Shown here: piece after piece, positions 20,725 through 33,392 of the stretch
Numbering within the stretch: position 1 is the stretch's first letter
Layout of the letters: each line of letters begins with the position of its first letter
NCBI GenBank assembly: GCA_028712885.1
Contig: JAQTPK010000030.1
Span: forward strand, 1-36,127
DNA length: 36,127 bases
Origin: Syntrophales bacterium
GTDB lineage: Bacteria; Desulfobacterota; Syntrophia; Syntrophales; UBA4778
Direction of reading: 5' to 3'
Made by a program: the position numbers and the translations under genes
The notes under the pieces: generated by a model
What the model was told of the DNA's origin: nothing
What the model saw: only the letters and a program-made list of their open reading frames with translations
Database searches by the model: none

Positions 20725-21510
20725 CTATCCCGGCTTGATTGCAGATACCCTGATGCTGGCGATTGTTGCCGCCCTGATGAGGCCGTCGTCCTCCTCCGGC
20801 AAAGAGGTTTCTTCGATTATCTTCACATCTTTGAAGCCCGCCGCTCCGACCGCATCGAGGTATTCACCTTTCATGACCGCCCCCGCCAGGCACGCCGTGT
20901 ACGCCTCGATGGAATTACTGATCTCATCCGGCAGCTCTTTCAGAAGAACGATATCCGAAATCATCAGGCGGCCGCCCGGGCGGAGGACCCGGAACGCCTC
21001 ACGGAAAACCCTTCTCTTGTCGTGGGAAAGGTTGATCACGCAGTTTGAAATGACAATGTCGGCGGTATTACCGGCGACAGGCAGATTTTCGATCTCGCCC
21101 AGCCGGAACTCAACATTGCCGTAGTCTCCCTTCCCGGCATTTTCCCTCGCCTTTTCCAGCATTTCGGAAGTCATATCCACTCCGATTACCCGCCCGTTTT
21201 TCCCGACCCGATTCGCGGCCAGAAAGCAGTCGAAACCCGCGCCGGAGCCGAGATCGACGACCGTTTCGCCTTCCCGCAGCGACGCGAGGGCAATGGGGTT
21301 TCCGCATCCCAGCCCGAGGTTCGCGCCGTCCGGAACGGCTGCCAGGTCTTCGGGGCCGTATCCCGCCCCCGATCCCGCTCGAGCTCGATCGCCGGAGCAG
21401 CACGAAGCCGAAGGAAGGCAGCATGAGCCCGCCTCTTTTGCGATATTCCCGTAGCGGTCCCGGACCGCCTTTCTTATCTCCCCGGCTCCAATAAAACTCG
21501 TCTTTCTCAT
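20725..21510 (-). CDS. arsM: Arsenite methyltransferase
   Basis: A SAM-dependent methyltransferase of about 261 aa matching ArsM. It shows VRDRYGNIAKEAGSCC near the start, a second CC pair, GYGPEDLAAVPDGANLGLGCGNP, the SAM-binding VDLGSGAGFDCF, and GVDMTSEMLEKAR. The arsenic-binding cysteines are in SNCVINLS and AYTACLAGA, plus the one in the N-terminal region. It methylates As(III) to volatile or exportable species. The ATG at 21510 has GAGG at good spacing; an ATG at 21534 adds eight residues with a weaker ribosome site. No arsR, arsB or arsC is adjacent, so regulation by arsenic is not evident locally. Confidence 0.92.
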   Translation of the reverse strand: MRKTSFIGAGEIRKAVRDRYGNIAKEAGSCCLPSASCCSGDRARAGSGAGYGPEDLAAVPDGANLGLGCGNPIALASLREGETVVDLGSGAGFDCFLAANRVGKNGRVIGVDMTSEMLEKARENAGKGDYGNVEFRLGEIENLPVAGNTADIVISNCVINLSHDKRRVFREAFRVLRPGGRLMISDIVLLKELPDEISNSIEAYTACLAGAVMKGEYLDAVGAAGFKDVKIIEETSLPEEDDGLIRAATIASIRVSAIKPG

Positions 21511-21572
21511 TTTGCCTGCCTCGCAATCAGTCATATGACTCTTTTCTGAATATCTTGTTTAAGTCCGGCTGG

Positions 21573-25374: not shown

Positions 25375-25938
25375 TCACCCGCCGGGTGCGCATTCCCCCT
25401 CATCCTTCAGGTTCTCCACATTCTTGCCGAAGGGCCGGGAAGCCGCTTCATCCCTGTCAGAGAGGGCAAGCTCCGCTGCGACTCCGGCGGCCTCCGTTAT
25501 CAGTTCACGGCAAAAAAGAGCGTGGTCACGGCAGAGCCACTGGTCTTTCCACTTGGACGTCAGCTCTCTGCAGAGCGTGTTGCCGAATTTTTCTTGAAGC
25601 TTGTTCGGGATCTGGTTGAATAGCCTGTAGAGGCCCGGCTTGCCGTAAAGCTGCTGCGCGGATTTCTTGGCCGCCTCTTTTCCCTCTCCCTCCGGCAAAG
25701 CGCTCCTGCCATGCACGGTGCCCACGGCGATAACGGCTCCGGTAATGGCGCCGCAGGTATCTCCGAAAAGGCCCACACCGCCGCCGAATCCGGTCGCGAC
25801 CTTCTTGACCTCGGGCGGAAGTCCGGTATCGACAAGGCTCAGCACGGCCTCTGTTACGCACTCGGCGCAGTTGTACCCGAGGCTGAAATTCTTTCTGGCC
25901 CTCTGCCTGATCTGTTCGATTTTTTCCTCTCTGGTCAT
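25375..25938 (-). CDS. C_GCAxxG_C_C family putative redox protein
   Basis: A 187-aa protein of the C_GCAxxG_C_C family. The first conserved Cys pair is in YNCAECV, the signature is GDTCGAITGAVIAVG, and further cysteines lie in TLCREL, WLCRDH and LFCREL toward the C-terminus. Members are cytoplasmic, common in anaerobes, and thought to be redox-active or to bind a cofactor; function is unproven. The start ATG 25938 has GGAGG about 10 nt upstream. It lies downstream of the terminator that follows the AbfD-like gene and probably has its own promoter between 25939 and 26000. Confidence 0.85.
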   Translation of the reverse strand: MTREEKIEQIRQRARKNFSLGYNCAECVTEAVLSLVDTGLPPEVKKVATGFGGGVGLFGDTCGAITGAVIAVGTVHGRSALPEGEGKEAAKKSAQQLYGKPGLYRLFNQIPNKLQEKFGNTLCRELTSKWKDQWLCRDHALFCRELITEAAGVAAELALSDRDEAASRPFGKNVENLKDEGECAPGG

Positions 25939-26000
25939 CTTATCAGTCCTCCGTCGTTTCTCATCATAAAAAGGAATAGCGGAAAAAGTTCTTTGCGTCA

Positions 26001-26030
26001 AATAAAGCCCCCATACCGTCAGTATGGGGG
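26001..26030 (-). terminator. Rho-independent terminator of AbfD-like operon
   Basis: Perfect 9-bp stem CCCCCATAC (26008-26016) with GTATGGGGG (26022-26030), 5-nt loop. On the minus strand it is followed by CTTTATTT. It lies 23 bp after the AbfD-like stop. Confidence 0.8.
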
Positions 26031-26052: not shown

Positions 26053-27501
26053 TTATTCATCCTTCATTCCCATGAGCTTCTTGGCCATTTTCTTCTTGGC
26101 TTCGAAATCCGTAAGAACCGTAAACATGAACCGCTGGGTCTGGGGCGCTCCGGCTCCATGCCAGGTCCCCGGACCGTGGAGTCCCGCGGTCCAGTGCTGG
26201 AGGAACTTTGCAATCTTGAGCCTCTTCTCGGCCGGGGCGGCCGCGGCAAAGGCCTTTTTCAGCATGGGGCCTACTTCGGGGTCTTTAAGGTCCTGCTGTC
26301 TCGGCATGCAGACAACGAGACCGCCGCCGATATCGCCGGCGTTCTTGATGATTTCATAGAAACCGTGGGCGATATTAAGCTTGGCGGCATTCCCGAAGAG
26401 GTCATCCGGCAGAAAGACGCCCGACCCTTTCGGTTCTTCCCTTCCCCTCATGGCGGCCGCGATGGCGCACGCATGGGAGGTCTCGCTGAAGCGCAGCATG
26501 TCAACGATCTTTTCCTGGATATGGGGGACTTTCTCCACACCGATGCTTTCCGCCGCCAGCATGGTCCCGCCGATGATCAGGTCGGCAAAACCGACCTTGC
26601 AGGCGCCGCCGCAGTTCATCCTGTGCGCTTTTGCGAATCTCGTGACGATCTTTCCGCTGTACTTCGTTTCTCCGCAATGGAAAACCCTTTCCCAGGGGAT
26701 AAAGACGTTATCGAAATACATGGTCGATGTTTCGCGCTGGCCAAAAAGGGGATTACCCAGCTCTTCCTCTTTGTACATTTCGCGTTCCGCCGAATAGGCG
26801 TTGTACTGGGTAATATAGGTAAGGCCGGGGGCGCTGTTCTGCACGGCAAAAGCCAGGGCGAAAGGCTCTTCCCCCTCCTTCAGGGCGCCGCCCGGAAGGA
26901 CCAGCGTTTCATGGGAGCCGATCGCGCCGCTCTGGCTGACCTTGATCCCTCGTACGACTATGCCGTCGTCGCGTTTCTCCACCATGCGCAGGAACGTGTC
27001 GGGTTCATCCTGCTGGGAGGGCCTCTTCTTCCGGTCGCCTTTGGCGTCCGTGATCGCCCCGGAAACGGCGAGGTCGTTCGCCTGGGCGTAAGCAAGCCAC
27101 TTGTTGAATCTCTCATTATACTTAGTGCCGAGGGCCTGGTCCATTTCCCAGGTACACGAGGCAAGGCTGTTGAGGGCGTCACAGCCGACACAGCGGTAGT
27201 TACAGGTTCCGACGGTCTGGCTGGTGAGAAGCGCCATTTCCTGTCTCATGTCGAGATCATGAATATTCCGGGCCACGTTCAGGTTCCTGTTGACCGGTTC
27301 CCCCGTAAGATGGGATTTAGCCACCATGACCTCTTTGTTTTTCGGATCTTCGGCCAGGGCGTAAATCATCGAATTTGCCATGACCATGGAACGGGTTACC
27401 GGATTTTCCAGCAGGTTTTTGACCCATTTCCCGCCGCAGTAAACCCGGGGCGCCAGTTTGTTCATATCGTCCAGATACTGTTTTGCTGTCTTTAAAGCCA
27501 T
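26053..27501 (-). CDS. 4-hydroxybutyryl-CoA dehydratase-like (HpaB/AbfD superfamily) flavin/FeS protein
   Basis: A 482-aa protein co-linear with AbfD of Clostridium aminobutyricum. The [4Fe-4S] ligands appear conserved: C100 and C104 in TCNYRCVGCDA, H293 and C301 in AHRMNCGGACKVG. The last spacing is one residue longer than the H-x6-C of AbfD. E257, S191 (Thr in AbfD) and the Lys after C301 match active-site positions as I recall them. The catalytic Tyr after the His is replaced by Cys (C297), and the Glu before HGAG is replaced by Gly. The superfamily dehydrates or hydroxylates CoA esters or phenols using flavin. The reaction here is probably related but not demonstrably 4-hydroxybutyryl-CoA dehydration. 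It follows a 109-aa partner gene by 20 bp. Confidence 0.88.
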   Translation of the reverse strand: MALKTAKQYLDDMNKLAPRVYCGGKWVKNLLENPVTRSMVMANSMIYALAEDPKNKEVMVAKSHLTGEPVNRNLNVARNIHDLDMRQEMALLTSQTVGTCNYRCVGCDALNSLASCTWEMDQALGTKYNERFNKWLAYAQANDLAVSGAITDAKGDRKKRPSQQDEPDTFLRMVEKRDDGIVVRGIKVSQSGAIGSHETLVLPGGALKEGEEPFALAFAVQNSAPGLTYITQYNAYSAEREMYKEEELGNPLFGQRETSTMYFDNVFIPWERVFHCGETKYSGKIVTRFAKAHRMNCGGACKVGFADLIIGGTMLAAESIGVEKVPHIQEKIVDMLRFSETSHACAIAAAMRGREEPKGSGVFLPDDLFGNAAKLNIAHGFYEIIKNAGDIGGGLVVCMPRQQDLKDPEVGPMLKKAFAAAAPAEKRLKIAKFLQHWTAGLHGPGTWHGAGAPQTQRFMFTVLTDFEAKKKMAKKLMGMKDE

Positions 27502-27521
27502 ACCAACCCCTCCTTTTCTGG

Positions 27522-27851
27522 TTAATCTTTCGTTTTCTTTTCCCGGAGTACATTGATTGAAAAACGGGCTCTTCCGCCTTCAGCCGGAAAGGCGCTCATA
27601 TTTCTCAATGCCACATCCATCATCTCCATTATGTCCTTCTCGGAACGATTCCCGGAAAATGTAACAGAAAGGTTAGACTCGTCCCGCTTCGCGCCGGCAA
27701 CCAGGCCTTCTTCATAACAGAAACCGGGCAAGGCCCTCTTCTGCACGCAGTTATAAACCAGGGCCGCAAAAGTCCCCTTATATCCCTTGTAATTCCTTTT
27801 CAGTTTTCCTGCCGTGATCCTGATGATCTCGTCCGTATCAAGCTTGGCCAA
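27522..27851 (-). CDS. Small protein encoded with AbfD-like enzyme
   Basis: A 109-aa soluble protein: AKLDTDEIIRITAGKLKRNYKGYKGTFAAL at the start, Cys in YNCVQ and GFCYE, a SVTFSGNRSEKD middle, and a basic tail. I do not recognise a family. It starts at TTG 27851 with GGAGG 8 nt upstream; no ATG start is available in the right place. It is the first gene of a two-gene operon with the AbfD-like enzyme, which suggests an accessory or subunit role (inference). Confidence 0.65.
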   Translation of the reverse strand: MAKLDTDEIIRITAGKLKRNYKGYKGTFAALVYNCVQKRALPGFCYEEGLVAGAKRDESNLSVTFSGNRSEKDIMEMMDVALRNMSAFPAEGGRARFSINVLREKKTKD

Positions 27852-32916: not shown

Positions 32917-33330
32917 CTATCTGCAGAACCCGACGGACCCCCACGCGCATAACGACCCGTCTATCCATACCGCCCGGCTTAAATTCGCCGACTTCAGGTT
33001 GGCCCGGCGCAGGTCTGAATGGAACAGGTCCACTCCTGTCAGGTTGGCCCCGCTCAGGTTTGTTCCGTACAGCACCGCCCTGTTCAGACTTGCCCCGGTC
33101 AGGTTCGCTCCGGTCAGGTTCGCTCCGGTCAGCACCGCTCCGTACAGGTTTGCCTTGCTCAGGTTGACCCCCGTCAAGTCGGCTTTCTTCAAGTCGCATT
33201 CAAGGCATTGGTTGGTAGCCTTCAAGGTCTTCAGATGAGCCGGGTCGAAGGCAGAAGCACCGCCGGGCGAAAACATAAGCATCAAAAAAACGGCGACAGC
33301 GGCTGAAATCGTTCTGCTGTTCTGGTTCAT
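32917..33330 (-). CDS. Exported pentapeptide-repeat protein
   Basis: A 137-aa protein. Signal peptide ISAAVAVFLMLMFSPGGASA, then LKTLKATNQCLECDLKKADL, the Cys-pair N-cap common in this family, then about fifteen A(D/N)LxX repeats forming a right-handed beta-helix, and a WIDGSLCAWGSVGFCR end with two more cysteines. The role of the group is structural or unknown. The start ATG 33330 has GAGAGG 8 nt upstream. Its promoter carries a Crp-type palindrome. Confidence 0.9.
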   Translation of the reverse strand: MNQNSRTISAAVAVFLMLMFSPGGASAFDPAHLKTLKATNQCLECDLKKADLTGVNLSKANLYGAVLTGANLTGANLTGASLNRAVLYGTNLSGANLTGVDLFHSDLRRANLKSANLSRAVWIDGSLCAWGSVGFCR

Positions 33331-33392
33331 GGCAATTACCTCTCGATCAGTTTCTGTCTGCACAGCCCGAAGGCGCGCCGCTCCTTGATCTT

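Follow-up and report, generated by a model that had tools for sequence, protein, structure and literature searches.

The locus described here raises the question of what reaction is catalysed by an enzyme related to 4-hydroxybutyryl-CoA dehydratase (AbfD) in which the predicted iron-sulphur cluster ligands are retained and three other active-site positions are changed, and of whether the small protein encoded immediately upstream takes part in that reaction. The window, meaning the whole stretch of 36,127 nucleotides that was analysed, derives from a genome of the order Syntrophales. AbfD itself is the textbook example of a radical dehydration that relies on both flavin and iron-sulphur cofactors, and a sister subfamily of AbfD would separate the machinery needed for the radical step from the parts of the protein that set the substrate. 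A search of the literature returned no paper linking AbfD to Syntrophales and none describing the altered subfamily. Its members are probably annotated simply as 4-hydroxyphenylacetate hydroxylase or 4-hydroxybutyryl-CoA dehydratase, and the wrong step may therefore be assigned in metabolic reconstructions of anaerobic syntrophs.

Gene pair and active-site residues of the AbfD-like enzyme

The enzyme gene, henceforth referred to as abf, occupies positions 26053–27501 of the minus strand, starts with ATG behind the SD sequence AAAGGAGG and encodes a protein of 482 aa. A 20 bp gap separates it from sm, the gene for a 109-aa protein, which lies upstream on the same strand (27522–27851) and starts with TTG behind the SD sequence GGAGGT; the coordinates and reading frames given for both genes in an earlier note on this DNA were correct. 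The sm-abf pair is closed by an intrinsic-terminator-like hairpin of 10 pairs (26008–26030, minus strand), which separates abf from cg (25375–25941, minus strand), the downstream gene for a putative redox protein of the C_GCAxxG_C_C type.

The 482-aa protein matches the Pfam domains HpaB_N and HpaB. By phmmer it aligns end to end (residues 3–480) with AbfD of Clostridium aminobutyricum (1u8v_A) at an E-value of 1.7e-111 and 42% identity over aligned residues. The second-best solved homologue is vinylacetyl-CoA delta-isomerase (6vjr, E 1.3e-95), and HpaB structures follow at E 1e-38. Possession of both domains and of four putative cluster ligands would place the protein in the AbfD-like FAD/[4Fe-4S] branch of the HpaB superfamily. 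An AlphaFold2 model built with 22 orthologues reached a pLDDT of 38.

Active-site columns were mapped by aligning the 482-aa protein with 1u8v, whose numbering is used for AbfD. The residues that we take to be the [4Fe-4S] ligands of AbfD, an assignment which, like the other AbfD residue roles used here, reportedly goes back to the AbfD structure study of Martins in 2004, are all retained (C99, C103, H292 and C299 correspond to C100, C104, H293 and C301 of the window enzyme). E257 aligns with E257, K300 with K302 and T190 with S191, and the KGDR..PS.Q motif of the flavin region is common to both proteins. In contrast, Q101, Y296 and E455, which presumably handle the 4-hydroxyl side of the substrate in AbfD, are all missing from the window enzyme. 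Q101 is replaced by Y102 within the C100-N-Y-R-C104 ligand motif (27190–27204, minus strand), and Y296 is replaced by C297 within the signature HRMNCGGACKVG (26591–26625, minus strand, an exact pattern match), which also holds H293, C301 and, ahead of this last ligand, the extra residue A300. Y452–E455 of 1u8v face a four-residue deletion in the segment GLHGPGTWHGAG (residues 440–451; 26149–26184, minus strand), where GPGT is followed by WHGAG. Vinylacetyl-CoA delta-isomerase, a member of the same family, keeps the canonical Tyr and the TESMHGAG motif, both of which the window enzyme lacks.

The alignment bears out most of what the earlier note had described, namely the intact ligand set with E257, an H-to-C spacing longer by one residue, and a Cys in the register of the catalytic Tyr. 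The loss of the Glu before HGAG also stands, although it had been worded as a change to Gly and is in fact a deletion of the Glu-bearing stretch; neither Tyr nor Glu is conserved in register. The Q101-to-Tyr change was absent from that list.

The source genome encodes six members of the family. The best paralogue of the window enzyme (43% identity) carries the full canonical set, with HRQSYGGCKVG and TESMHGAG, and its gene adjoins a gene for an iron-containing alcohol dehydrogenase. This paralogue and its neighbour seem already to fill the 4-hydroxybutyrate role, and no genomic link to 4-hydroxybutyrate metabolism was found for the window enzyme itself. Two further paralogues, on contigs C58 and C82 of this genome (loci L005 and L006), show an incomplete set of cluster ligands in our alignment, and their surroundings resemble beta-oxidation gene clusters.

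Distribution and conservation of the altered subfamily

Homologues with the altered signature were collected with a search pattern that did not include Tyr at position 101 or the gap at 455. The resulting HRMxCGGxC subfamily comprises 55 sequences from two phyla, Desulfobacterota and Bacillota. All 55 possess C99, C103, H292, C299, E257, K300, Tyr at 101 and the gap at 455, and the H-to-C loop is longer by one residue throughout. Cys occupies position 296 in 53 of the 55, the two sequences with Tyr being one locus counted twice. Since neither Y101 nor the 455 gap belonged to the search pattern, their co-occurrence with the signature is independent of how the sequences were found.

In a tree of the 55 signature sequences together with AbfD and other paralogues, the subfamily was monophyletic with a support of 0.82 and sister to canonical AbfD; clade I, to which homology and the tree assign the window enzyme, was monophyletic with a support of 0.99. 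The altered positions are kept in every clade-I homologue, with C297 of a single locus (L046) as the sole exception. Orthologues of the window enzyme at 81–92% identity were present in 24 genomes, its own included, among approximately 150 genomes of the order. Below them lies a gap, followed by relatives at 54% and 47–49%, which have the signature HRM[NT]CGG[AT]CKVG in common, and then by canonical AbfD at ~44%. A degenerate DNA pattern for the signature matched in 33 of 395 Desulfobacterota genomes (~8% of the sample), with no match for the reversed control, and in 5 of 299 genomes of the phylum to which a Bacillota MAG belongs, a count that includes the MAG itself. The dN/dS ratio of the enzyme (0.03–0.09) demonstrates strong purifying selection. 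On this comparison, the active-site changes are best read not as local drift but as the mark of a monophyletic subfamily that is sister to true AbfD.

The 109-aa protein, its cassette and the neighbouring mutase

The small upstream gene, sm, is a genuine protein gene, with orthologues at 29–66% identity to the window protein and a dN/dS of 0.14–0.40. Its product is confidently modelled (pLDDT 90) with a predicted b-b-a-b-b-a-b fold. Scanning sm and 20 orthologues against Pfam and NCBIfam gave no consistent family match, and a PDB profile search with the sm family returned nothing. Comparison of the model with PDB structures (best Foldseek E 0.15, best VIA Z 4.0) and with viral proteins (best E 0.064) likewise produced no convincing match. 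Both the absence of a recognised family and the TTG start, as noted earlier, were confirmed. Weak matches to BolA, DUF59, OsmC and MamB domains were not accepted as evidence. Selenocysteine, considered on account of TGA codons in some matches, was rejected because these stops are not part of the reading frames of the genes concerned.

sm lies directly upstream of the enzyme gene in 22 of the 24 enzyme-carrying Syntrophales genomes. Among 23 named loci, 19 show this arrangement, and one of the 19 (L055) is from Bacillota. Whole-genome profile searches gave no match to sm for the genomes carrying L046, L052 and L053, L046 retaining a 28-aa remnant, and it is missing beside one of the two Bacillota copies. 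Across the phylum it was detected in no more than 3 of the 395 genomes, each of them from the order Syntrophales, and it was not found near clade II or clade III enzyme genes. C297 is present without sm in L052, L053, L054 and clades II and III. The possibility that sm is required for the altered active site was accordingly rejected, because the rest of the subfamily (clades II and III, Bacillota relatives and three clade-I genomes) does without it. sm is an accessory of one branch, clade I, and not an obligate catalytic subunit. The earlier expectations that sm would always accompany close homologues and would always be first in its operon both fail, the latter because two or three genes precede it in most relatives. 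The proposal that sm is a dedicated partner is upheld in part: its linkage within clade I is tight and it decayed jointly with its neighbours in L046, but the same active site exists elsewhere without it.

In relatives, sm and abf form the end of a larger cassette, overlooked previously along with the mutase link described below, that runs in the order PAS-LuxR regulator, C_GCAxxG_C_C protein (cg), CoA-disulphide-reductase-like flavoprotein (fadox), sm and enzyme. This order was observed in 10 of 23 named loci, and the flavoprotein is a TIGR03385-like pyridine-nucleotide flavoprotein. Such a cassette, with its 109-aa protein, sets clade I apart from AbfD. In relatives it sits between mtnA and a B12-dependent mutase. 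In the source genome, mtnA and the mutase are adjacent on a separate contig (C44); the window carries the enzyme, sm and, past the terminator rather than upstream of sm, cg. The flavoprotein gene is not adjacent to the enzyme gene in the window.

A decaying copy of the cassette was found at L046 (8120–9907, HGW-Deltaproteobacteria-12). Its cg gene is frameshifted, its flavoprotein gene is frameshifted and carries a deletion, its regulator is truncated, and its enzyme has an intact reading frame with Tyr at 297. This decay supports the view that the cassette acts as one functional unit. C297 may be linked with an intact cassette in that one lineage, where assembly errors may also underlie the frameshifts. 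In another genome, G507, which offers the one informative case of co-acquisition, both the cassette and the mutase (contigs C11 and C55) resemble those of a different family (f17), which could be due to joint transfer or to binning contamination.

A B12 mutase module consisting of genes for the mutase, a B12 subunit, MeaB, an adenosyltransferase and a DUF2284 protein lies directly downstream of the cassette in 8 of 23 named loci. The mutase was present at at least 85% identity in all 23 genomes with sm and the cassette, including one whose contig stops short of the enzyme gene, and at at least 84% in about 18 of 126 other sampled genomes, a comparison counted by eye that ignores kinship. The motifs RMF and IAQKT in 24 mutases put Phe and Gln at what we take to be the Tyr89 and Arg207 positions of methylmalonyl-CoA mutase, and Ala stands where 2-hydroxyisobutyryl-CoA mutase presumably has Asp117. 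The residue pattern of the neighbouring mutase, as aligned, is of the isobutyryl-CoA mutase type. For a syntroph, passages of a published report describe the same gene set (mutase, B12 subunit, MeaB and adenosyltransferase) as the cluster for isobutyryl-CoA mutase; an AbfD-like gene is not mentioned in those passages (PMC5017805). The module is a neighbour of the window enzyme in relatives and not part of it. The mutase is present in many genomes that lack the enzyme, and in the source genome the two lie on different contigs. Their link may be positional or phylogenetic.

Most clade II and III genes stand alone or near unrelated genes, including PHA genes, benzoyl-CoA-reductase-type ATPases and housekeeping genes. 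At L110 (8752–17747) a clade-III enzyme gene is immediately ahead of the polyhydroxyalkanoate synthase genes PhaE and PhaC. At L109 (35–1533) and L140 (2944–4798), clade II/III enzyme genes lie near genes for BcrA/BadF-type ATPases, presumably activators of benzoyl-CoA reductase or 2-hydroxyacyl-CoA dehydratase. A tight operon at L154 (2806–8659) contains GntR, a B12 mutase, a B12 subunit, a CoA ligase and a clade-III enzyme; this mutase is a different one with an unusual active site, having Ile at the position taken as Tyr89 of methylmalonyl-CoA mutase and ETTIGS where R207 is expected.

Proposed function and alternative readings

As the ligand set is intact while the acid/base set is consistently altered, the enzyme likely differs from AbfD in substrate or reaction, as had been suggested earlier; the pattern defines a clade, and the source genome encodes a canonical AbfD as well. 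Our leading reading, put forward tentatively, is that the 482-aa protein is an AbfD-like FAD/[4Fe-4S] acyl-CoA enzyme of a distinct subfamily acting on a different CoA ester, with sm as a clade-specific accessory. To judge from the sequence comparisons, the enzyme is most likely a radical acyl-CoA lyase or isomerase for a CoA ester other than 4-hydroxybutyryl-CoA, perhaps a branched one. The thioester substrate would bind with the flavin on one side and, on the other, a [4Fe-4S] cluster whose ligands are C100, C104, H293 and C301. H293 would remove the alpha proton and the flavin would accept one electron, and the resulting enoxyl/ketyl radical would undergo elimination or a shift of the double bond, so that the overall reaction is redox-neutral. 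Y102, C297 and the shortened Thr-Trp loop would stand in for Q101, Y296 and E455 of AbfD, and with these three replaced, a different CoA ester, probably short and possibly branched, is therefore to be expected. The substrate may belong to an acyl-CoA metabolism that also uses the isobutyryl-CoA-mutase-type B12 mutase. sm would assist in assembly, stability or docking of the cassette redox proteins and would not be needed for catalysis. A bolder form of this reading is possible but doubtful: a new class of radical acyl-CoA enzyme with Cys in place of the catalytic Tyr, acting on a branched or unprecedented CoA ester, and working in clade I as a multi-protein system with sm, the redox protein and an NAD(P)H flavoprotein.

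Alternatively, the enzyme could catalyse a net redox reaction, with electrons passing from NAD(P)H through the flavoprotein and the C_GCAxxG_C_C protein, perhaps via C297, to the FAD/[4Fe-4S] centre while sm docks the partners. Clade I is encoded together with just such a pyridine-nucleotide flavoprotein and putative redox protein, and the flavoprotein, cg and sm decayed jointly in L046, where C297 is Tyr. However, those genes are not found nearby in clades II and III and the Bacillota relatives, whose active site is the same, the flavoprotein gene is not adjacent in the window, and AbfD needs no external electrons. We consider a net redox reaction rather unlikely.

The radical lyase or isomerase reading must also be weighed against a plain AbfD that has undergone drift. 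An identity of ~40% to AbfD-type proteins and the retention of E257 and every cluster ligand would be consistent with drift; joint fixation of the Q101-to-Tyr and Y296-to-Cys changes, the E455 loss and the insertion across two phyla, and the presence of the canonical paralogue alongside this enzyme, make it quite unlikely. Less probable again is that C297 replaces H293 as the fourth ligand, giving an all-cysteine cluster (CxxxC plus CxxxC) for electron transfer or substrate binding. The equal spacing of C100-x3-C104 and C297-x3-C301 and the longer H-to-C loop of the whole subfamily fit such a cluster, but H293 is invariant in all 55 sequences and the L046 orthologue, albeit at a decaying locus, has Tyr297 in an intact frame. 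A flavin-dependent aromatic monooxygenase of HpaB type, although it would share the HpaB_N and HpaB fold family, is very improbable given scores far below the curated equivalog cut-offs (163.4 against 480.2 bits for TIGR02309 and 64.6 against 885.2 bits for TIGR02310), a much closer match to AbfD (E 1.7e-111 against 1e-38), the retention of four cluster ligands that the aligned HpaB proteins lack, and hosts that are, by taxonomy, anaerobic syntroph lineages.

Elsewhere in the window, positions 20725–21534 were judged by eye to encode an arsenite methyltransferase-like protein and positions 32917–33363 a pentapeptide-repeat protein, the latter overlapped by repetitive mirror frames on both strands.
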